Shown piece by piece: positions 9,338 through 32,680 of a DNA stretch of 34,396 nucleotides. The position numbers and the translations under genes are program-made. Where the stretch lies: the NCBI GenBank assembly GCA_001001045.1, contig LCIL01000003.1:1-34396 (forward strand), read 5' to 3'. Source of the DNA: Candidatus Woesebacteria bacterium GW2011_GWA1_44_23. Lineage in GTDB: Bacteria; Patescibacteriota; Microgenomatia; UBA8517. Every line of letters begins with the position of its first letter. Within the stretch, counting starts at the first letter, position 1. The notes below the pieces were generated by a model, which was not told the origin of the DNA, made no database searches, and worked only from the letters and a program-made list of their open reading frames with translations.

Positions 9338-10663
9338 TTATTTTGAATGCTTTGTCTCCCGCCCAAAGAACTTTATCCTGTCCCCCTTGAAGTGGAGGGG
9401 AACACTTTTAAGAGGTCCGTTCCTGTGTTTGGCGATATCAAGCATCATGTTTTCGCTGTTTTCTTCATCCTCTCTCCATAAAAACATCACAACATCCGCA
9501 TCCTGTTCAATACTGCCCGAGTCCCTCAGGTCCGAAAGCTGGGGCTTTTTGCCTCCCCGGGTTTCCACTGCCCTGCTTAGTTGGGAAAGGGCGAGAACAG
9601 GAACCTTAAGCTCTCTGGCTAAATTTTTGAGTCCCTGGGAAATTTCGGAAACCTCCTGGACCCTGTTTTCAAGCTGCCGGCTCCGGGCAAGCTGCAGATA
9701 GTCGACAACGATAAGGTCAACCCCTCTTTCCACCTGGAGACGGCGGGCTTTGGTGCGCATTTCCAAAATGGATAAAGCCGGTGTGTCGTCAATAAAAATA
9801 GGGGCTTCGGCCAGCTCCCCCATCGCGTTACTCAACTTCGTAAAATCATCTTCCGAAAGCTTGCCGGTTTTTAGCTTCCAGGCATCGATATCCGCCTGGG
9901 CTACAAGAAGCCTGTCCACAAGCTCTTCCCTGCTCATTTCGAGCGAGAAAAATCCCACGGGACGCTTCAGCTCCACCGCCACATATTGTGCAATGTTTGT
10001 TGCAAGCGAGGTCTTTCCCACTCCGGGGCGGGCTGCCAAAATCAATAAGTTTGATTGCTGAAGCCCCGCCAGGGCATCATCCAGGTCGGCAAATCCGGTG
10101 GGTACCCCGCGTATCCCGGCACCCGATTTGTGAAGCTCATCCAGGCGGTCAAAGCTCTCCGCCAGGGTATCTTTTACCGAAACGAATGTTTTACTCAGGG
10201 ACTTCTGGCTCAAAGAGAAAATTTCACTTTCAGCCCGGTCCAAGGCCTCCCCCGCCGCCAGTGACTCATCCATTGAAACTTCGACAAGGCGGGAGGCGGC
10301 AGACATGAGGGCCCTTTTCGTGGCGGTATCTTTGACTATTTTTCCGTAGTGCTCAACGTGTGCGGCGGTAGGAACTTTATTGGCCAAATCTGCAAGAAAT
10401 GACGAACTTCCGGCACTTTTAAGTATTTTTCTTTTCTTGAGCTTTTCAGTTACCGTCAGAACGTCAATTGGGGTTCTGTCTTCGTAAAGTTCGAGACAGG
10501 CTTGGTAAATTTCTTTAAGTCTTTCGTCGTAAAAATCCTCGGGAAAGAGAAATTCGGCAACGGCGATGACCGCGTCTTTGTCGATAAGCATCGCACCCAG
10601 AACGCTTTCTTCTGCTTCCTGGGAGTGAGGCGGGACGCGTGGTTGGTTGGTTTGTGCTGCCAT
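9338..10663 (-). CDS. dnaB: replicative DNA helicase DnaB
   Basis: PPHSQEAEESVLGAMLID N-terminus, Walker A ARPGVGKTS, DLIVVDYLQL. Confidence 0.96.
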   Translation of the reverse strand: MAAQTNQPRVPPHSQEAEESVLGAMLIDKDAVIAVAEFLFPEDFYDERLKEIYQACLELYEDRTPIDVLTVTEKLKKRKILKSAGSSSFLADLANKVPTAAHVEHYGKIVKDTATKRALMSAASRLVEVSMDESLAAGEALDRAESEIFSLSQKSLSKTFVSVKDTLAESFDRLDELHKSGAGIRGVPTGFADLDDALAGLQQSNLLILAARPGVGKTSLATNIAQYVAVELKRPVGFFSLEMSREELVDRLLVAQADIDAWKLKTGKLSEDDFTKLSNAMGELAEAPIFIDDTPALSILEMRTKARRLQVERGVDLIVVDYLQLARSRQLENRVQEVSEISQGLKNLARELKVPVLALSQLSRAVETRGGKKPQLSDLRDSGSIEQDADVVMFLWREDEENSENMMLDIAKHRNGPLKSVPLHFKGDRIKFFGRETKHSK

Positions 10664-19612: not shown

Positions 19613-20716
19613 CTAGGTTCCTATTTTAAATTCCACCACATCTCCGTCTTTTATGGTGTAATCCCGCCCTTCAGAACGGACTTTGCCAAGCTCGCGGCAG
19701 ATCTTCCAACCGCCGTTCCCGACAAAATCGGTGAAGGTAACCACATCGGCTTTGATGAACTTTTTAATGAAATCGGTGTGGATTACCCCTGCGGCTTCCT
19801 GGGCATTAATGCCATCCTTGATGGTCCATGCCCTGACCTCTTTTTCTCCCGCGGTAAGAAAAGTGATCAGCCCGAGGGTGGCAAAGGCTTTTTGAATCAG
19901 TCTTTCAAGACCCGATCCTGTAATCCCGAGGTCTTTCATGTAAATTTTTTGATCTTCTTCGGAAAGTTCCGAAAGTTCGGATTCTGTTTTGGCACAGATT
20001 GCCACAATCTGGTTTTTATCAACCTTCAACTCCTCCGCATATTTAGCTTCCAAATTGTCCACGTCCCCCAGGGAACTTTCATCAACATTTAAAACGATGA
20101 GTATCGGTTTGGCTGTAAGAAGACTTAAACTTTTGGCTATTTTTTCTTCTTCCTCGGTTAACGCAACGTCCCTGGCCGGGGTCCCCTTTTGAAGTTCGTT
20201 TTTCAGTCTTGTCACAACTTCCCACCATTTAACCAGTTCTTTATCCGGAGTATTCCCCGGATCCTTCTGTTTTTCAAGGGTCTGAAAGTCGGCAAGAGTC
20301 AACTCCGTTTCCACAACCTCAAAATCGGTTTTGGGATCAGCCACTCCCTGTTTGATTATATCGGGGTCGGAAAATGCGCGGACTACGTGGCAAATTGCGG
20401 AAGTTTCCCTTATATGACTCAAGAACTTATTCCCAAGTCCTTCCCCTTTACTTGCTCCGGCAATAAGACCTGCAATATCAACAAACTCGACGGTAGCGGG
20501 AATTTCGGGGGGAAGGTTTGCCATATTCTCGGCCTTTTTTGTAACTTCGGCAAGCTTTCCCAGACGCCCGTCCGGAACCGGAATCACACCAATATTCGGC
20601 TCAATCGTTGCGAACGGAAAATTTGCAACATAGGCTTGCTGGCGCTTTAAAAGCGCGTTAAAAAGGGTAGACTTTCCAACATTCGGAAGACCCACTATGC
20701 CGCACGAGATATTCAT
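19613..20716 (-). CDS. ychF: redox-regulated ATPase YchF
   Basis: CGIVGLPNVGKSTLFNALL, NxxE-type G4 region, C-terminal TGS domain. Confidence 0.96.
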   Translation of the reverse strand: MNISCGIVGLPNVGKSTLFNALLKRQQAYVANFPFATIEPNIGVIPVPDGRLGKLAEVTKKAENMANLPPEIPATVEFVDIAGLIAGASKGEGLGNKFLSHIRETSAICHVVRAFSDPDIIKQGVADPKTDFEVVETELTLADFQTLEKQKDPGNTPDKELVKWWEVVTRLKNELQKGTPARDVALTEEEEKIAKSLSLLTAKPILIVLNVDESSLGDVDNLEAKYAEELKVDKNQIVAICAKTESELSELSEEDQKIYMKDLGITGSGLERLIQKAFATLGLITFLTAGEKEVRAWTIKDGINAQEAAGVIHTDFIKKFIKADVVTFTDFVGNGGWKICRELGKVRSEGRDYTIKDGDVVEFKIGT

Positions 20717-20732
20717 GAGCGTATTTTAGCAT

Positions 20733-21536
20733 TTATAACTCAAAATCCAGAACCAAAGGTAAATGGTCAGAAACATCCTTATCGAGGACTTTAAAATTAT
20801 TTACTTTAAGATTCGGACTTACAAACACATAATCAACAACATTTCTTCTGTTGCCACTTAGTTCATTAGACGACGGTCTTGTGGATTTGACTTTGAATCT
20901 GTCTATTAAATTCGTAAAATCTTTTTCAAAAACCTTAATTGATGGTGTTTCCGGAAACAAATTAAAGTCTCCACAAACAATCACATTACCCTTAAATGAA
21001 GAGGCATAATTAAGAATCTTTTTACACGCTTCAAATGTTTTATCGTTTCCTTTTTTGTCTCTGGTCCAAATCCCGTGGTAATTAATTATTCTTAAAGATT
21101 TACCACCATCTACTAATATATCGGTTATTAAAATTGCTCTTTCCTGTTCGTTAGGCCATTTTTCTTCTCGACTGGGATTGTAAGAAAAATCCCCCTCCAA
21201 AAATATACTACTAGCTTCTGATATTTTAAATTTAGATTTGGTATAGTTCCCCATTTCTAGAAACCCTTTCGGGTCGAAATGGAAATTCCCCTGTCCATGA
21301 AAATCCTTCATCTTAATTTCCCCAAAAACATTTGTGGGGCCAAAAAAACTATATTTCAAATCACCCGTCCCCTCATCAATTGTGTCTTTGGAAATAAATT
21401 CTTTATCAACACCATCAACCAAACCCCTAGTTACCTCTTGAAAACAAGCAATATCAGGGCATTCCTCTTTCAAATAACCAGCTAGTTTTGGATTGTTTGG
21501 CTCAAACAAGGCTGCATTAAGAGTGATTAATTTCAT
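20733..21536 (-). CDS. endonuclease/exonuclease/phosphatase family protein
   Basis: LNAALFE..., CFQEV, GDFNLFP, SDHLPLVLD motifs. Confidence 0.85.
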   Translation of the reverse strand: MKLITLNAALFEPNNPKLAGYLKEECPDIACFQEVTRGLVDGVDKEFISKDTIDEGTGDLKYSFFGPTNVFGEIKMKDFHGQGNFHFDPKGFLEMGNYTKSKFKISEASSIFLEGDFSYNPSREEKWPNEQERAILITDILVDGGKSLRIINYHGIWTRDKKGNDKTFEACKKILNYASSFKGNVIVCGDFNLFPETPSIKVFEKDFTNLIDRFKVKSTRPSSNELSGNRRNVVDYVFVSPNLKVNNFKVLDKDVSDHLPLVLDFEL

Positions 21537-21554: not shown

Positions 21555-21734
21555 TCATAAATTACAAAACAATGGAGGAACTTTTGAATGAATTATCTGT
21601 CCCAACTCGTTCCTTTCAATGATTAAACGCTCTTTATTGGCTTTCGGAATTGGAAGCTTGAAGTTAAATTCAAAAGTTGGGACAGTGAAATGAGTATCCC
21701 AACTTCTAAGGAACTCATGAAGGTATTTTAGCAT
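21555..21734 (-). CDS. repeat-family small protein, copy 1
   Basis: MLKYLHEFLRSWDTHFTVPTFEFNFKLPIPKANKERLIIERNELGQIIHSKV..., aligns with copy 2 with mainly third-position and conservative changes. Confidence 0.6.
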   Translation of the reverse strand: MLKYLHEFLRSWDTHFTVPTFEFNFKLPIPKANKERLIIERNELGQIIHSKVPPLFCNL

Positions 21735-21738
21735 ACCC

Positions 21739-22362
21739 CTAAATCTCCTGAACAATTACCTCCCCGTCACGCACTGTCTTATAGATCATCCCCTTCTTCT
21801 TGTAATATCTAATAGTTTCATCAACTTTTACAGATTCGGGGTGGTCAGATTTGTAGTGAGGAACAAAGATAAAGTCGATCAAATCCAATCCGTCCCAAAT
21901 AACATCGGTGCTATAACCTTTAGAAACAATATTGGGTTCATCAACAATCTCCAACCCTTTTAGTGTTGGAGAAAGAATACAACACCCTGCACTGTATCCG
22001 CCATAAACTAGTTCTTTATTATTTTTTTGAGATAGAAGCCATTTATCAAAACCGCTTTGCTTATAAGCCCGCCTCAAAATAAAAGTATTCCCTCCCCTAA
22101 CCCAAATTAGTCCGAACTCCGACATCTTCCCGAATAATTCATTGTGCTTACCAAAATATTTTTTTAAATCGACCACTTCTGGATTAAACCCAAGATTTAT
22201 TAACTCATCCATATTCGCCCGAATTTTTTCTCTTATTAATTCCTTGTCCTCTATATTATCTAATGCATTCGGAATCACTGCTGCTCTCTTGTTCTTACCG
22301 ACCATATCGACTAAAACTTGAGGATCATCGCCTAAGCGATAAGAGGAAAGATAAAGTTTCAT
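21739..22362 (-). CDS. pepE: peptidase E (S51 family)
   Basis: MKLYLSSYRLGDDP; GGNTFILRRA; GYSAGCCIL nucleophile motif; start moved to the ATG at 22362. Confidence 0.82.
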   Translation of the reverse strand: MKLYLSSYRLGDDPQVLVDMVGKNKRAAVIPNALDNIEDKELIREKIRANMDELINLGFNPEVVDLKKYFGKHNELFGKMSEFGLIWVRGGNTFILRRAYKQSGFDKWLLSQKNNKELVYGGYSAGCCILSPTLKGLEIVDEPNIVSKGYSTDVIWDGLDLIDFIFVPHYKSDHPESVKVDETIRYYKKKGMIYKTVRDGEVIVQEI

Positions 22363-22375
22363 AAATCTGTTTATC

Positions 22376-22552
22376 TTAACATACTGGATATTGCTTGAGC
22401 ACCCTAGAATGAACAATCTGTCCCATACTATTCCTCTTGGTAATTATTCTTTCCCTGTTTGGCTTTGGGATTGAAAATTTGAAGTAAAAATCAAAAGTTG
22501 GGATGCCAAAATGAGCATCCCCACTGAAAGACTCATGAGCGTATTTTATCAT
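22376..22552 (-). CDS. repeat-family small protein, copy 2 (below the ORF-track length cutoff)
   Basis: Manual translation: MIKYAHESFSGDAHFGIPTFDFYFKFSIPKPNRERIITKRNSMGQIVHSRVLKQYPVC*. Confidence 0.6.
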   Translation of the reverse strand: MIKYAHESFSGDAHFGIPTFDFYFKFSIPKPNRERIITKRNSMGQIVHSRVLKQYPVC

Positions 22553-22560
22553 TTTTGAAG

Positions 22561-22586
22561 ATTCTCTGTCCCAACTTTTGAAAATT
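22561..22586 (-). repeat. fragment of the same repeat family
   Basis: TTTTCAAAAGTTGGGACAGAGAAT on the minus strand resembles copy 1 segments (TTCAAAAGTTGGGACAG; GTTGGGACAGATAAT). Confidence 0.5.
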
Positions 22587-22630
22587 TTATTGCTAGTATC
22601 TGCTTTTTAAAGTATACTTTCATTTCGTTC

Positions 22631-23167
22631 ATGAAAGTAACATTTCTTTTATTAATCTTGTTTTTACTGCTGTTGACAAAAACAGATCAGGCTTTGGCTG
22701 AAATAAAAGTTATTGAATCACCAACACCCACGCTCAATAAAATCCTGCTTCCTGCCGGATCTCCCCTACCACAAAAACCGCTGCTTCCCACTGGAACACC
22801 CCGACCGATCAAACCCCTGCTATCGCCTATTCCTGCTCCGGTTAAAGTTCAGAGCGGCATTCTACTGGAAGTTAATGAATCAGGAAAATTGGTGGCTGAA
22901 ACGGACTCCATTAAAAAAGTGCTTGCCAAAAATCCCGAGGAAATAACCGGTTTAGCCAAAAACCAGGGTTTGGATGAGGTTACCGAACTGAATCTCAACG
23001 AATCAGCCGGAGAGTTTAAATATGTAGTCAACGGTAATAAGATTGAAAAATTGCTGTTAGTTTTCCGGGTCTCATTACCAACCGCCCTGACCTTCAGTGA
23101 TTCCGGAAAGCTGGAAAAATCTATTCAGTCTCCGCTGGTTAAGTTAATTGATTTCCTCAGTAACTGA
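22631..23167 (+). CDS. secreted protein with Pro-rich segment, unknown
   Basis: Signal peptide MKVTFLLLILFLLLLTKTDQALA; LLPxGxPxP-type repeats. Confidence 0.65.
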   Translation: MKVTFLLLILFLLLLTKTDQALAEIKVIESPTPTLNKILLPAGSPLPQKPLLPTGTPRPIKPLLSPIPAPVKVQSGILLEVNESGKLVAETDSIKKVLAKNPEEITGLAKNQGLDEVTELNLNESAGEFKYVVNGNKIEKLLLVFRVSLPTALTFSDSGKLEKSIQSPLVKLIDFLSN

Positions 23168-23202
23168 AGGAGTTATTCTATATTAGCCTTATGTAAAGTT
23201 AT

Positions 23203-23275
23203 GAAGAATTTGAAGTCAAAAATTGGGATGCCGAAATGAGTATTCCAACAGAAAGGCTCATGGGGCAATTCTAAT
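23203..23275 (-). repeat. degenerate copy 3 of the repeat family
   Basis: Minus-strand frame HEPFCWNTHFGIPIFDFKFF matches copies 1 and 2; no intact ORF in that frame. Confidence 0.6.
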
Positions 23276-23297
23276 ATTTGGGTATAAAAATATACAG

Positions 23298-27266: not shown

Positions 27267-27985
27267 ATAGGTGTTGCTGTGGGCGATGCCGTCGGTGATA
27301 CGGTTGGTGTCGGTGTTGCTGTCGGTGATGCCGTCGCAGTGGGTGTTGCGGAAGAGGTAGCTGTTGCGGTTGAGGCCGGAGACCCTGAAGGCGTTGCCGA
27401 ATCACTGCTTGTCGTGGTCGGCACCAGGGTGTGTACTCCTACGATAAGATTCCTGATGGATGTTCTGTAGTTATTCATGGCTCTTTTTACGAGCTGCATG
27501 TTAAGTCTGTATTGATTCAAAAGGCCTTTAGGATCACCAAACTCGCAGCTAAAATTGGCGGAGTCGGTTTGCGTCTTTGTCATGGCAGCCGTTACCAAAC
27601 CTTTTTGTTTGTCTATATCGGCAACCAGTGCATCATAATTGGAGAGACTTTTCCCGCTGGCAATCACTTTCGTTTGATAGAAATTTTTAACCCGGAGTGC
27701 AATTGCGTCAAACTTACCCATCGTGTTTATAGCCAGACGGTTCAATTGACCGATTTTTTTAGTAATGCCGTTTTCTTTTGCCTGACAGACCTTCAGTTTT
27801 ACCGCGGTCAAATTACTTTTTCCTCTGCTTGCGGGGGACGCCGAAGGCGATGCTAGGATACTGTCAGGCGTTAGAGCACCGGGGTTATTTCTTACGGTGG
27901 CGGCACGGTCACTTGCCGCAAAGGCCGAAGTTGCAAAAAAACCGAAAATCAAAGCCAGGACAATGGGAAGAAGTTTTAATTTCAC
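27263..27985 (-). CDS. secreted protein with Ser/Thr/Pro/Ala-rich C-terminal tail
   Basis: Signal peptide; tail SATPTATASPTATPTPTVSPTASPTATPI. Confidence 0.7.
   Translation of the reverse strand: MKLKLLPIVLALIFGFFATSAFAASDRAATVRNNPGALTPDSILASPSASPASRGKSNLTAVKLKVCQAKENGITKKIGQLNRLAINTMGKFDAIALRVKNFYQTKVIASGKSLSNYDALVADIDKQKGLVTAAMTKTQTDSANFSCEFGDPKGLLNQYRLNMQLVKRAMNNYRTSIRNLIVGVHTLVPTTTSSDSATPSGSPASTATATSSATPTATASPTATPTPTVSPTASPTATPI
27266..27400. repeat. low-complexity degenerate short repeats within a CDS
   Basis: Recurrent (g)tgttgctgt / gatgccgtcg / gtcggt units encoding TA/TP/SP. Confidence 0.6.
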
Positions 27986-28046
27986 AAGGTTCAGTCTAAC
28001 AAATTTCCTGAGTGATTGTCAAATAAAGACGATGTAAAATGTCACA

Positions 28047-28301
28047 ATGAAGGAAAGGTGTATTTTTACGGCAGCGGATTTCCAAGAACCTGCTTTTCCG
28101 AAAAACAAAGGAGATTGTGGTGAATGTTATGCAAATCCGGGAAAAGAGATGAACGGTTGCTGTTTTGAAGCCGCTAAAAGACTGATCATGCTGGACCAAA
28201 AGGAGGAAGTAATAGATGTGGCGGGGACGTTAAGAGGCAAAGCGTTATCCCAAACGTCAAGATTAAGAGGATTAAGCGGAGCGCTTATTAACTTGCCCTG
28301 A
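28047..28301 (+). CDS. small Cys-rich protein, unknown
   Basis: GDCGECYANPGKEMNGCCFEAAKRL; ORF in intergenic space. Confidence 0.5.
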   Translation: MKERCIFTAADFQEPAFPKNKGDCGECYANPGKEMNGCCFEAAKRLIMLDQKEEVIDVAGTLRGKALSQTSRLRGLSGALINLP

Positions 28302-28340
28302 TTATAAAGGGCAGCGTTGGAGCTTCATGGTATATCATTA

Positions 28341-29171
28341 GATGTGGATAAAGAAAAGGGATTTACTTATGTTTTTGTAATTTTCGTAGTTTTCGTGCTG
28401 GCCGCATTCTACCTTGGACGTTTACCCAAAACAAAAAACCTTGCAGTCAGTATCCTCCCCACCCCAACCCCATACCAGTTCCCCTATAAAAATCCCGTAA
28501 TCCCCAAAAATCGTTCGTACAGAATTGTAATTGTGGGAGACTCCATCGTTGACTCACTGGGACCGAATGCCAATGTTCTCCGGGAAGATTTAATAGGTTA
28601 TTATCCGGATAGTGAATTTGTAACATATAACTACGGCTATCCGTCAACCAATATTCTTAGTCTCTATCAAAGGCTTACCGAAGATACCGTCGGAAACGGA
28701 GAAAGAAATGAAGCCGTTTTTGAACTATCGTTTGAACTTATTATCATTGAATCTTTCGGCAATAACCCGCTTTCGGAGTACCCTCTGGCAGAAGGCCTTA
28801 AAAAGCAGGATGAAGAACTGGAAAGGAGTGTTACCGCAATTCTTTCCCAAAAACCAAACGCGGCTCTTGCATTTTTGACCCCCATTGCTTTTAACCCGGT
28901 AAACTATGCAAAAAGTACCCGTGATCTGTCAGCGGAAGAACGCAAAAAGTGGGTAGATGAAAGAACCGCATACGTAAATAATCACAAAAAGTTTGCGGAA
29001 GAAAAAGGAATACCTGTAATTGACGTTTACGCGGCATCCCTTAAATCAGACGGTGTGGTTGACGGAAGCTATATATCGGATGACTTCGTCCATCCTTCCG
29101 AAAAAGGCATTGCCCTAATCAGTAAATCCATTGCCGACTACATTTTCGCAAACAAAATTTTTCCCCAGTAA
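28341..29171 (+). CDS. SGNH/GDSL-type hydrolase, membrane-anchored
   Basis: IVIVGDSIVDSLG block I; DDFVHPSEKG block V; N-terminal TM; start (TTG 28317 or GTG 28341) uncertain. Confidence 0.82.
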   Translation, partial: DVDKEKGFTYVFVIFVVFVLAAFYLGRLPKTKNLAVSILPTPTPYQFPYKNPVIPKNRSYRIVIVGDSIVDSLGPNANVLREDLIGYYPDSEFVTYNYGYPSTNILSLYQRLTEDTVGNGERNEAVFELSFELIIIESFGNNPLSEYPLAEGLKKQDEELERSVTAILSQKPNAALAFLTPIAFNPVNYAKSTRDLSAEERKKWVDERTAYVNNHKKFAEEKGIPVIDVYAASLKSDGVVDGSYISDDFVHPSEKGIALISKSIADYIFANKIFPQ

Positions 29172-29188
29172 ATAGGTATAAGCTTAAA

Positions 29189-29416
29189 TCAGACGCGTTT
29201 ATCACTCACCGCGGCAAGTTCCCTGAAGTTGGTATTAGTTACCTGACAAGTTTTCTCGAGGCATTGGTAATATTCTTCGAGGCTTATTTCCCCCTTAAGA
29301 AAGGCAACCGACACTCGATTTTCTTCCCTAAGTGCCTCACCCAAACCTGTAAATTCCCCCACTTGCCCGGGTCCGTTCGGTTTAATAATATTTGAAAGAC
29401 TTTCTTTAAGGGGCAT
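29189..29416 (-). CDS. hypothetical protein
   Basis: 75-aa ORF, acidic/helical C-terminal half. Confidence 0.4.
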   Translation of the reverse strand: MPLKESLSNIIKPNGPGQVGEFTGLGEALREENRVSVAFLKGEISLEEYYQCLEKTCQVTNTNFRELAAVSDKRV

Positions 29417-31254: not shown

Positions 31255-31788
31255 ATGACTACCAAAAAATCATCTAAAAATTGGAACTTGGGCTTACTTT
31301 CTTTTGCCGCGATTGTGCTTCTGGTGGGAACTGTCTATCTTTCAAAAATTTCTAAGGGTTCCGTAGAAGGTGTAGGAACCGGTTTTGACGGGTTTGGATA
31401 TAACTATACTGCGAGACTATTCCAAGGCACATTGGATGGAGCCGATAGAAATATAGACGAAACATATTGGGGTGATGAAACTTATGCCAATGACCGTCTT
31501 GTAATGAAATGGTCCAAAGCATGGAACGATGCAAGGTTTAACGGAGAACCCTGGACACCGGATGCCTGGACATCTAATGAATATAACGGAAAAGTTCCCG
31601 GAGGAAGCGGTGAGGTTTGGCATTACAAAATTTCCTGGGTCGGACCCGAATTGGAACAAAGCCAATATTGGCGGCCGGGCGGATATGCTATATGGGGACA
31701 ATTTGAAGTAATTTTCTCCCAAGGAACTGTTGCAAACGAACATTTTTGGGATGCACATGCCGATCCTGCGGGATACGGAATGTTCTAA
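31255..31788 (+). CDS. secreted protein, GFDxxGYN...WTSNEYNG family, compact form
   Basis: Signal/anchor then GFDGFGYNYTARLFQG...PGGSGEVWHYKISWVG; strong RBS GGGGGTGA; paralogue of 31874-32680. Confidence 0.75.
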   Translation: MTTKKSSKNWNLGLLSFAAIVLLVGTVYLSKISKGSVEGVGTGFDGFGYNYTARLFQGTLDGADRNIDETYWGDETYANDRLVMKWSKAWNDARFNGEPWTPDAWTSNEYNGKVPGGSGEVWHYKISWVGPELEQSQYWRPGGYAIWGQFEVIFSQGTVANEHFWDAHADPAGYGMF

Positions 31789-31873: not shown

Positions 31874-32680
31874 TTAATTACCATAGCCATTAGGCGTAGC
31901 ATGTGTGAGCCAGTAATGGGCTCCATCTGACATCCCTTGGTCCATGACAACTTCGTAATTACCCCAAATTCGGTAACCACCATTTTTCCAATAAGAACCT
32001 TCATCTAGAACAGCGTTACCCGTAGTGCTATACCAGGTTCCATTGTCACCATCTGTGGCCGTCCAAGTTCCATTAATGATGGTGCCTGCAGCAGATATGG
32101 TCCCGTTGGCGGTATAGGTGTAAGGATAAGCTCCGCTTCCTGGCAAATAAGTTGCGACTATTGTCACAGTATTACCTGCTACAGAAACAGCGGCGGTGTA
32201 AGTGTTACCCGTTGATGCTCCGATTGCTGAACCATCTGCTGCGACTGTTAGCGTATGAGCGTATGTACCAGGATATTTTGTTGAAACAAAGTTTAATCCC
32301 CAGTTCCCCGTTAAATTCCAGGTTGCGGCCCCTACCCAGATGATCTTGTAGTGCCAAACTTCGCCTGATCCACCCGGAAATGCTCCATTCCATTCATTGG
32401 AAGTCCACGCGCCTGCACAAACAGCCGGATCATTGTTCCCTGCGTCATTGCAAGCATCCCAAGCCTCGTTCCACTTCATGATTAGGTTATCGTTGGAATA
32501 AACTCCCATGCAGTTAGCAGCTTGGCCTCCTGCAAGGCACCATCCTGATGCGGGTCCGTTAAAGATATTGCCGTTATCGTTGTAGCCGTATTGGTCAAAT
32601 CCGTTGCCACCAGCGAACGCAGTTGTTGCCGGTACGATCACGAGAATCAGTACTACAAGTATTGCAAAGATCTTTTTCAT
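31874..32680 (-). CDS. secreted protein, same family, with internal Gly/Thr-rich inserted domain
   Basis: Signal peptide; FDQYGYNDNGNIFNG...WTSNEWNGAFPGGSGEVWHYKIIWVG...SYWKNGGYRIWGNYEVVMDQG; RBS AAGGAGA. Confidence 0.78.
   Translation of the reverse strand: MKKIFAILVVLILVIVPATTAFAGGNGFDQYGYNDNGNIFNGPASGWCLAGGQAANCMGVYSNDNLIMKWNEAWDACNDAGNNDPAVCAGAWTSNEWNGAFPGGSGEVWHYKIIWVGAATWNLTGNWGLNFVSTKYPGTYAHTLTVAADGSAIGASTGNTYTAAVSVAGNTVTIVATYLPGSGAYPYTYTANGTISAAGTIINGTWTATDGDNGTWYSTTGNAVLDEGSYWKNGGYRIWGNYEVVMDQGMSDGAHYWLTHATPNGYGN

Follow-up and report, generated by a model that had tools for sequence, protein, structure and literature searches.

Repeated sequences upstream of ychF in a Woesebacteria genome as probable attachment-site scars of serine-integrase elements

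Why is a short coding sequence repeated on both sides of a peptidase gene in the 596-kb genome of Candidatus Woesebacteria bacterium GW2011_GWA1_44_23? Here, we address this question for a stretch of 34,396 nucleotides of contig LCIL01000003.1, referred to as the window. A preliminary description of the window had proposed a family of free small proteins of ~58 residues, or else a coding palindromic element of the kind known from Rickettsia. The evidence set out below makes it very probable that the repeats are attL scars, left by serial site-specific insertions of mobile elements with a serine integrase into the 5′ end of the gene ychF.

The repeats and the gene ychF

Two intact minus-strand open reading frames (ORFs) flank the peptidase E gene and read as first described (copy 1, 21579-21734; copy 2, 22400-22552). 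The decayed third copy is real, lying at ~23164-23277 (protein E 3.4e-6), and the fragment noted at 22561-22586 exists at 22566-22585, on the strand opposite to the copies. The repetition is far beyond chance (E 1e-16 between copies). At the protein level there are three copies in the whole genome, all within 1.7 kb of each other on one contig, while a DNA search gave an extra 22-bp match directly 5′ of ychF (20713-20734). No match was found in a Pfam search of the copies. The features of the locus, as we read them, are as follows.

19613-20716, minus: ychF, the target gene; its first six codons are the left half of attB/attR, whose core GG is at ~20700-20701
20714-20731, minus: current ychF promoter -10 element and start (TGCTAAAATACGCTCATG), directly after the endonuclease stop codon
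20733-21536, minus: putative cargo gene, endonuclease/exonuclease/phosphatase family (PF03372, E 1.4e-10)
21555-21698, minus: predicted right half of unit 1 attL, integrase C-terminal tail (copy 1)
21677-21682: predicted attP right arm of unit 1, TCCCAA, exactly 16 nt past the GG
21699-21734, minus: predicted left half of unit 1 attL, former ychF promoter and start (ATGAGTTCCTTAGAAGTTGG, MSSLEVG)
21739-22362, minus: putative cargo gene, peptidase E (S51/PepE; PF03575, E 1.4e-18)
22376-22519, minus: predicted right half of unit 2 attL, copy 2 of the integrase C-terminal tail, with TCCCAA as right arm at 22498-22503
22520-22552, minus: predicted left half of unit 2 attL, former ychF promoter and start (MSLSVG)
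22566-22585, plus: putative short inverted remnant of the attP right arm and tail (CTGTCCCAACTTTTGAA), preceding the plus-strand gene at 22631-23167
22631-23167, plus: inverted gene, possibly cargo, without a Pfam match
23164-23244, minus: predicted right half of unit 3 (outermost) attL, copy 3 of the integrase tail, decayed and interrupted by one stop, with TCCCAA as right arm at 23223-23228
23245-23277, minus: predicted left half of unit 3 attL, former ychF promoter and start (MSLSVG)

Elsewhere in the window, adjacent genes on opposite strands (31255-31788, plus; 31874-32680, minus) encode related secreted proteins, which have in common the motif WTSNEWNG..PGGSGEVWHYKI.WVG.

Aligned with their flanks, the 5′ parts of the copies are copies of the promoter and start of ychF. 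The sequence TGNTAAAATACNCTC-ATGAGYCTTTCTGTTGGGATA encodes MSLSVGI, which is the start of YchF (MSLSVGIVGLPNVGKS), and the genome as a whole has four occurrences of the promoter motif TRNTAAAATANNNNNATG, of which three are at ychF, copy 1 and copy 2. A general promoter motif, as distinct from a copy of that of ychF, was discounted on this near-uniqueness. Four different ychF starts are found at the locus, namely MSSLEVG in copy 1, MSLSVG in copy 2, MSLSVG in other codons in copy 3 and MNISCG in the current gene. Each copy thus reads as an attL scar, its left half the former ychF promoter with the first six codons and its right half the tail of a serine integrase.

These 5′ parts bear on the proposal that each copy makes an independent protein of ~58 residues with its own function. 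Conservation at the protein level, ORFs that are open in most copies and a promoter in front all speak for such a protein. However, its supposed beginning, MLKY or MIKY, belongs to the -10 element of ychF and does not mark a start codon; the codon varies between ATG, GTG, TTG and CTG, and TAG stops occur inside the supposed start region in G037 and L043. The natural start codon of the promoter lies in a different frame, and the N-terminal ~7 residues are noncoding, being ychF promoter and start read in the wrong frame. Taken with the tail standing in one frame with an integrase at three loci, and with insertion at ychF accounting for nearly every location (both described below), this leaves the independent small protein very improbable.

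Selection at the protein level, which the preliminary description had suggested, is borne out past the core. pN is lower than pS in 350 of 351 pairs, which are not independent of one another but agree clearly in direction, and dN/dS is about 0.2, ranging over ~0.1-0.3 in the closest pairs; pairs of more than 60% identity have 768, 546 and 1220 substitutions at codon positions 1, 2 and 3. The simplest reading is that selection acts on the whole integrase of free elements, so that scars may decay afterwards, as in copy 3 and several copies in G014.

Homologues in other Patescibacteria had been anticipated, and were found. An initial search gave homologues, often clustered, in 29 of 97 relatives (E <= 0.1), and a profile of the tail matched 70 of 286 genomes of the class (E <= 0.001), a total that is approximate because some matches are short and weak. 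Homologues of ychF itself are present in 267 of the 286. In 52 of the 53 genomes that have a tail and ychF on one contig, the tails are without exception upstream of ychF and in its orientation (n=71; 357 to 32282 bases away, median 2861), an arrangement with a chance of ~0.016 per genome; the exception, G017, has a weak match of 24 residues. Genomes with and without tails can also be compared at this locus. In G050, the outermost tail follows a recR-cysS block and ychF is ~33 kb away, beyond an island; in G007 and G040, which belong to the same genus and are without tails, the block and its neighbours lie a few kb upstream of ychF. G051 (ychF 82% identical to that of the window's genome) is also without a tail, and homologues of the genes on the window's left flank lie no more than 4 kb upstream of its ychF. 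The link between repeats and insertion drawn in the preliminary description is upheld.

Two further loci carry additional ychF sequence. In G054, the first 100 residues of ychF are present a second time as a truncated copy (G054:C16:51191-51490; L054:3192-3491), upstream of the tail and the intact ychF, and duplication here can therefore exceed the start codons. At L103 (G004), just before ychF at 9455, the present ychF promoter is preceded at ~45 nt by a second one that has decayed (TGCTAAAATACACCCATAAC), possibly the trace of an old insertion or of a promoter replacement.

The parent integrase and its attachment site

The source of the tail is indicated by genomes in which a large serine recombinase is found just upstream of ychF, its frame running over the ychF start (G011, G003, G026 and G050). 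A search across the class located the integrase in 26 genomes, and in 24 of these ychF, the target, starts at or just past the integrase 3′ end. In the 25th, G210, the integrase is followed in frame by an intact tail (...NEVEVMGHLPINHLNIGYELISRN...RYERLIVQRDEFGRIIHSKPPDIQI), and integrase C-terminus and tail are likewise in one open frame in G161 and G024, which brings the unsplit junctions to three. The G210 junction is 5.6 kb upstream of ychF, as expected if one element had integrated immediately behind another. The catalytic domain has been lost from the G210 ORF, so this full junction comes from an integrase without one, which we count against our reading. The integrase of G011 has Resolvase (PF00239, E 6e-26) and Recombinase (PF07508, E 1e-13) domains, together with a zinc ribbon (PF13408, E 2e-4) that is below its cutoff. 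By these domains and by the dyad site described below, the parent gene of the tail is classed as a large serine recombinase integrase. The preliminary description had named a remnant of some larger gene as an identity that would refute its small protein, and such a remnant is what the tail is.

A joint alignment of integrases and tails was poor, a PDB sequence search with the G210 ORF found no relative, and a phage search gave distant integrases only, the best from a Wolbachia phage at 30% identity. In G060, a distant integrase (29% identity; L133, G060:C2 ~27876-29267) ends before a coding sequence like Mg-chelatase/ComM and not before ychF, which suggests that in this relative the target gene has changed.

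The attachment site is a dyad around GG, TTGGRA-N16-GG-N16-TYCCAA. Its right part, GG-N16-TYCCAA, is present in many attL sites, and its left part, TTGGRA-N16-GG, in many attR sites; TCCCAA stands exactly 16 nt after the GG in all three copies of the window. Some attL sites deviate from exact N16 spacing, and this too counts against our reading.

The boundaries of the element can be read in G050 and G026, which belong to different genera and carry nearly the same element. Identity is 98.8% across 4.7 kb at the left and 98.6% across the final 1.5 kb of the integrase at the right. At attL, the two genomes have different host sequence (...CTGTCGG and ...CTGTAGG) and then share one element sequence, identical from GATAGAATAAG onwards; at attR, the two are identical through TATCGGTCGG, after which ychF diverges (66% identity over 600 nt). 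Since host DNA diverges exactly at the GG on both sides, the crossover lies in or next to the GG of ychF codon 6. The element is ~19 kb long (G050:C1 ~773.6-793 kb; G026:C1 ~20-39 kb). Its near-identical ends in two genera indicate recent horizontal transfer, and its middle, 76-88% alike or unmatched, suggests that cargo has been exchanged.

The site also accounts for the inverted repeat noted in the copies. The repeat is present. Its left arm, however, consists of ychF codons at the core; only the right arm (TCCCAACTT), from the right half of attP, takes part in the functional dyad. Rickettsia palindromic elements are repeated coding sequences with an inverted repeat, and the several copies here, each with such a repeat, invited the comparison. 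In contrast to elements that insert themselves in genes, however, the three copies are at a single locus of the genome, outside genes, and their dyad is half of a recombination site; an Rfam search gave no match. A coding palindromic element is accordingly extremely improbable.

Much the same holds for an integron-like array, in which the copies would be attC sites for a tyrosine integrase (IntI). GTTGGGA/TCCCAAC is similar to integron core boxes, and units of one gene are cassette-like, but the enzyme adjoining ychF belongs to the serine recombinases, the site is a dyad centred on GG with boundaries at that GG, the copies are attL with one half from ychF, and the sequence is under codon-level selection. 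This reading was dropped on account of the serine recombinase and the GG boundaries, and we give it almost no credence.

A mechanism for the array

The sequences show directly which gene the tail comes from and that the two share a frame, and likewise the target, the place of the core, the ends of the element, the replacement of the first ychF codons and transfer between genera. The proposed mechanism relies on ordinary serine recombination by the integrase, and the order of events is one that we infer. The integrase gene is at the right end of the element, with attP in its last ~150 bp, centred on the GG; within attP, the integrase frame crosses a mimic of the ychF start one base off and continues into the conserved tail of ~50 residues. 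Recombination of attP with attB (approximately ychF codons 1-12, with the same GG) would generate attL and attR. At attR, the element would supply new first codons for ychF, and the integrase would read out of frame into ychF and soon stop; at attL, the old ychF promoter and start would be joined to the severed tail. Because attP is inside the integrase 3′ end, integration would cut off the last ~50 residues, which would end up at the opposite end of the element. With the ychF start restored, further insertions there would repeat the process and give an array with cargo between the scars, from which the integrases of the window would since have been lost.

By its structure the enzyme qualifies as a self-splitting integrase, with the predicted attP inside the gene, the integrase running into ychF at attR and the tail placed at attL. 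Whether the integrase becomes less active, or inactive, on losing its tail, which would make integration self-limiting, we regard as an evenly balanced proposition.

Two negative results count against this explanation: the class-wide integrase search detected no integrase gene in the window's genome, and no excised circle of the element was seen in the genomes searched. A further difficulty is posed by the inner scars, which mostly have a ychF-type promoter on their left and not the end of the previous element's integrase; simple serial insertion predicts the latter. At the inner scars of the window (21699-21734 and 22520-22552) and of L047, L046 and L052, this promoter is 0-8 nt behind the stop codon of the cargo gene. 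Deletion of the integrase and restoration of the ychF promoter may have come before each new insertion; alternatively, integrase-free units carried a ychF promoter of their own.

The second of these options leads to a variant of the attL-scar explanation, in which the units of the window are not remnants of full elements. They would instead be cassettes without an integrase, each made up of a scar, one gene and a ychF promoter, which are mobilised in trans or rearranged through homologous recombination. In favour of the variant, the window, G014, G021 and G054 have units that measure 0.8-2 kb, contain one or two genes and end on the right in a ychF promoter. A unit flanked by ychF promoters on both sides would nevertheless be without a proper attP left arm, the tails are still under selection as parts of an integrase, and the tight spacing may reflect genome compactness alone. 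We judge the variant unlikely, though far from negligible.

Known systems and significance

The integrase shares with the large serine recombinases, including the phage integrases of TP901-1, A118 and phiC31, the domain order Resolvase, Recombinase, zinc ribbon, as well as the logic of attP × attB recombination, a dyad around a 2-bp core and a coding gene as target. It differs from them in that attP is inside the integrase coding sequence, a conserved tail is split off and the target is the start of ychF. Self-disrupting integrases were stated in a 2021 review to be exclusively archaeal and of the tyrosine type (PMC8371274). In those 'suicidal' integrases of the SSV type, the site is likewise inside the integrase gene, the gene is partitioned and scars mark the ends of the element, but the enzymes, tyrosine recombinases, end up as an N-terminal and a C-terminal pseudogene (PMC8371274). 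Here, the enzyme is a bacterial recombinase with serine and not tyrosine domains, and loses its C-terminal tail only.

Integration-dependent immunity in mycobacteriophages also places attP inside a gene, that of the repressor, the C-terminus of which is altered by integration; there, the integrase is of the tyrosine type and acts at a tRNA gene (PMC9262239). Pneumococcal prophages integrate beside ychF and have int immediately upstream of it, and an effect on ychF expression has been reported, but their attB is between DUF951 and ychF, and the parts of that report available to us describe neither a split integrase nor replacement of ychF codons (PMC8637289). A literature search, for which subscription journals were mostly out of reach, turned up no case of a serine integrase that carries attP within the integrase gene itself.

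On sequence grounds, the integrase at ychF is a bacterial serine counterpart of the archaeal self-splitting tyrosine integrases, and self-splitting integrases are thereby extended from archaeal tyrosine to bacterial serine enzymes. More tentatively, such integrases may operate across the class, with the lost tail needed for activity, insertion fixing the element where it is, ychF receiving new start and expression signals each time, and integrase-free units accumulating as an integron-like gene array in Patescibacteria. The locus offers a base-pair definition of an integration hotspot, and an integrase family, in uncultured bacteria with poorly known mobile elements. It is also a warning that small conserved ORFs in annotations can be scars of att sites, and it suggests a simple route to one-way integration without a separate control protein.
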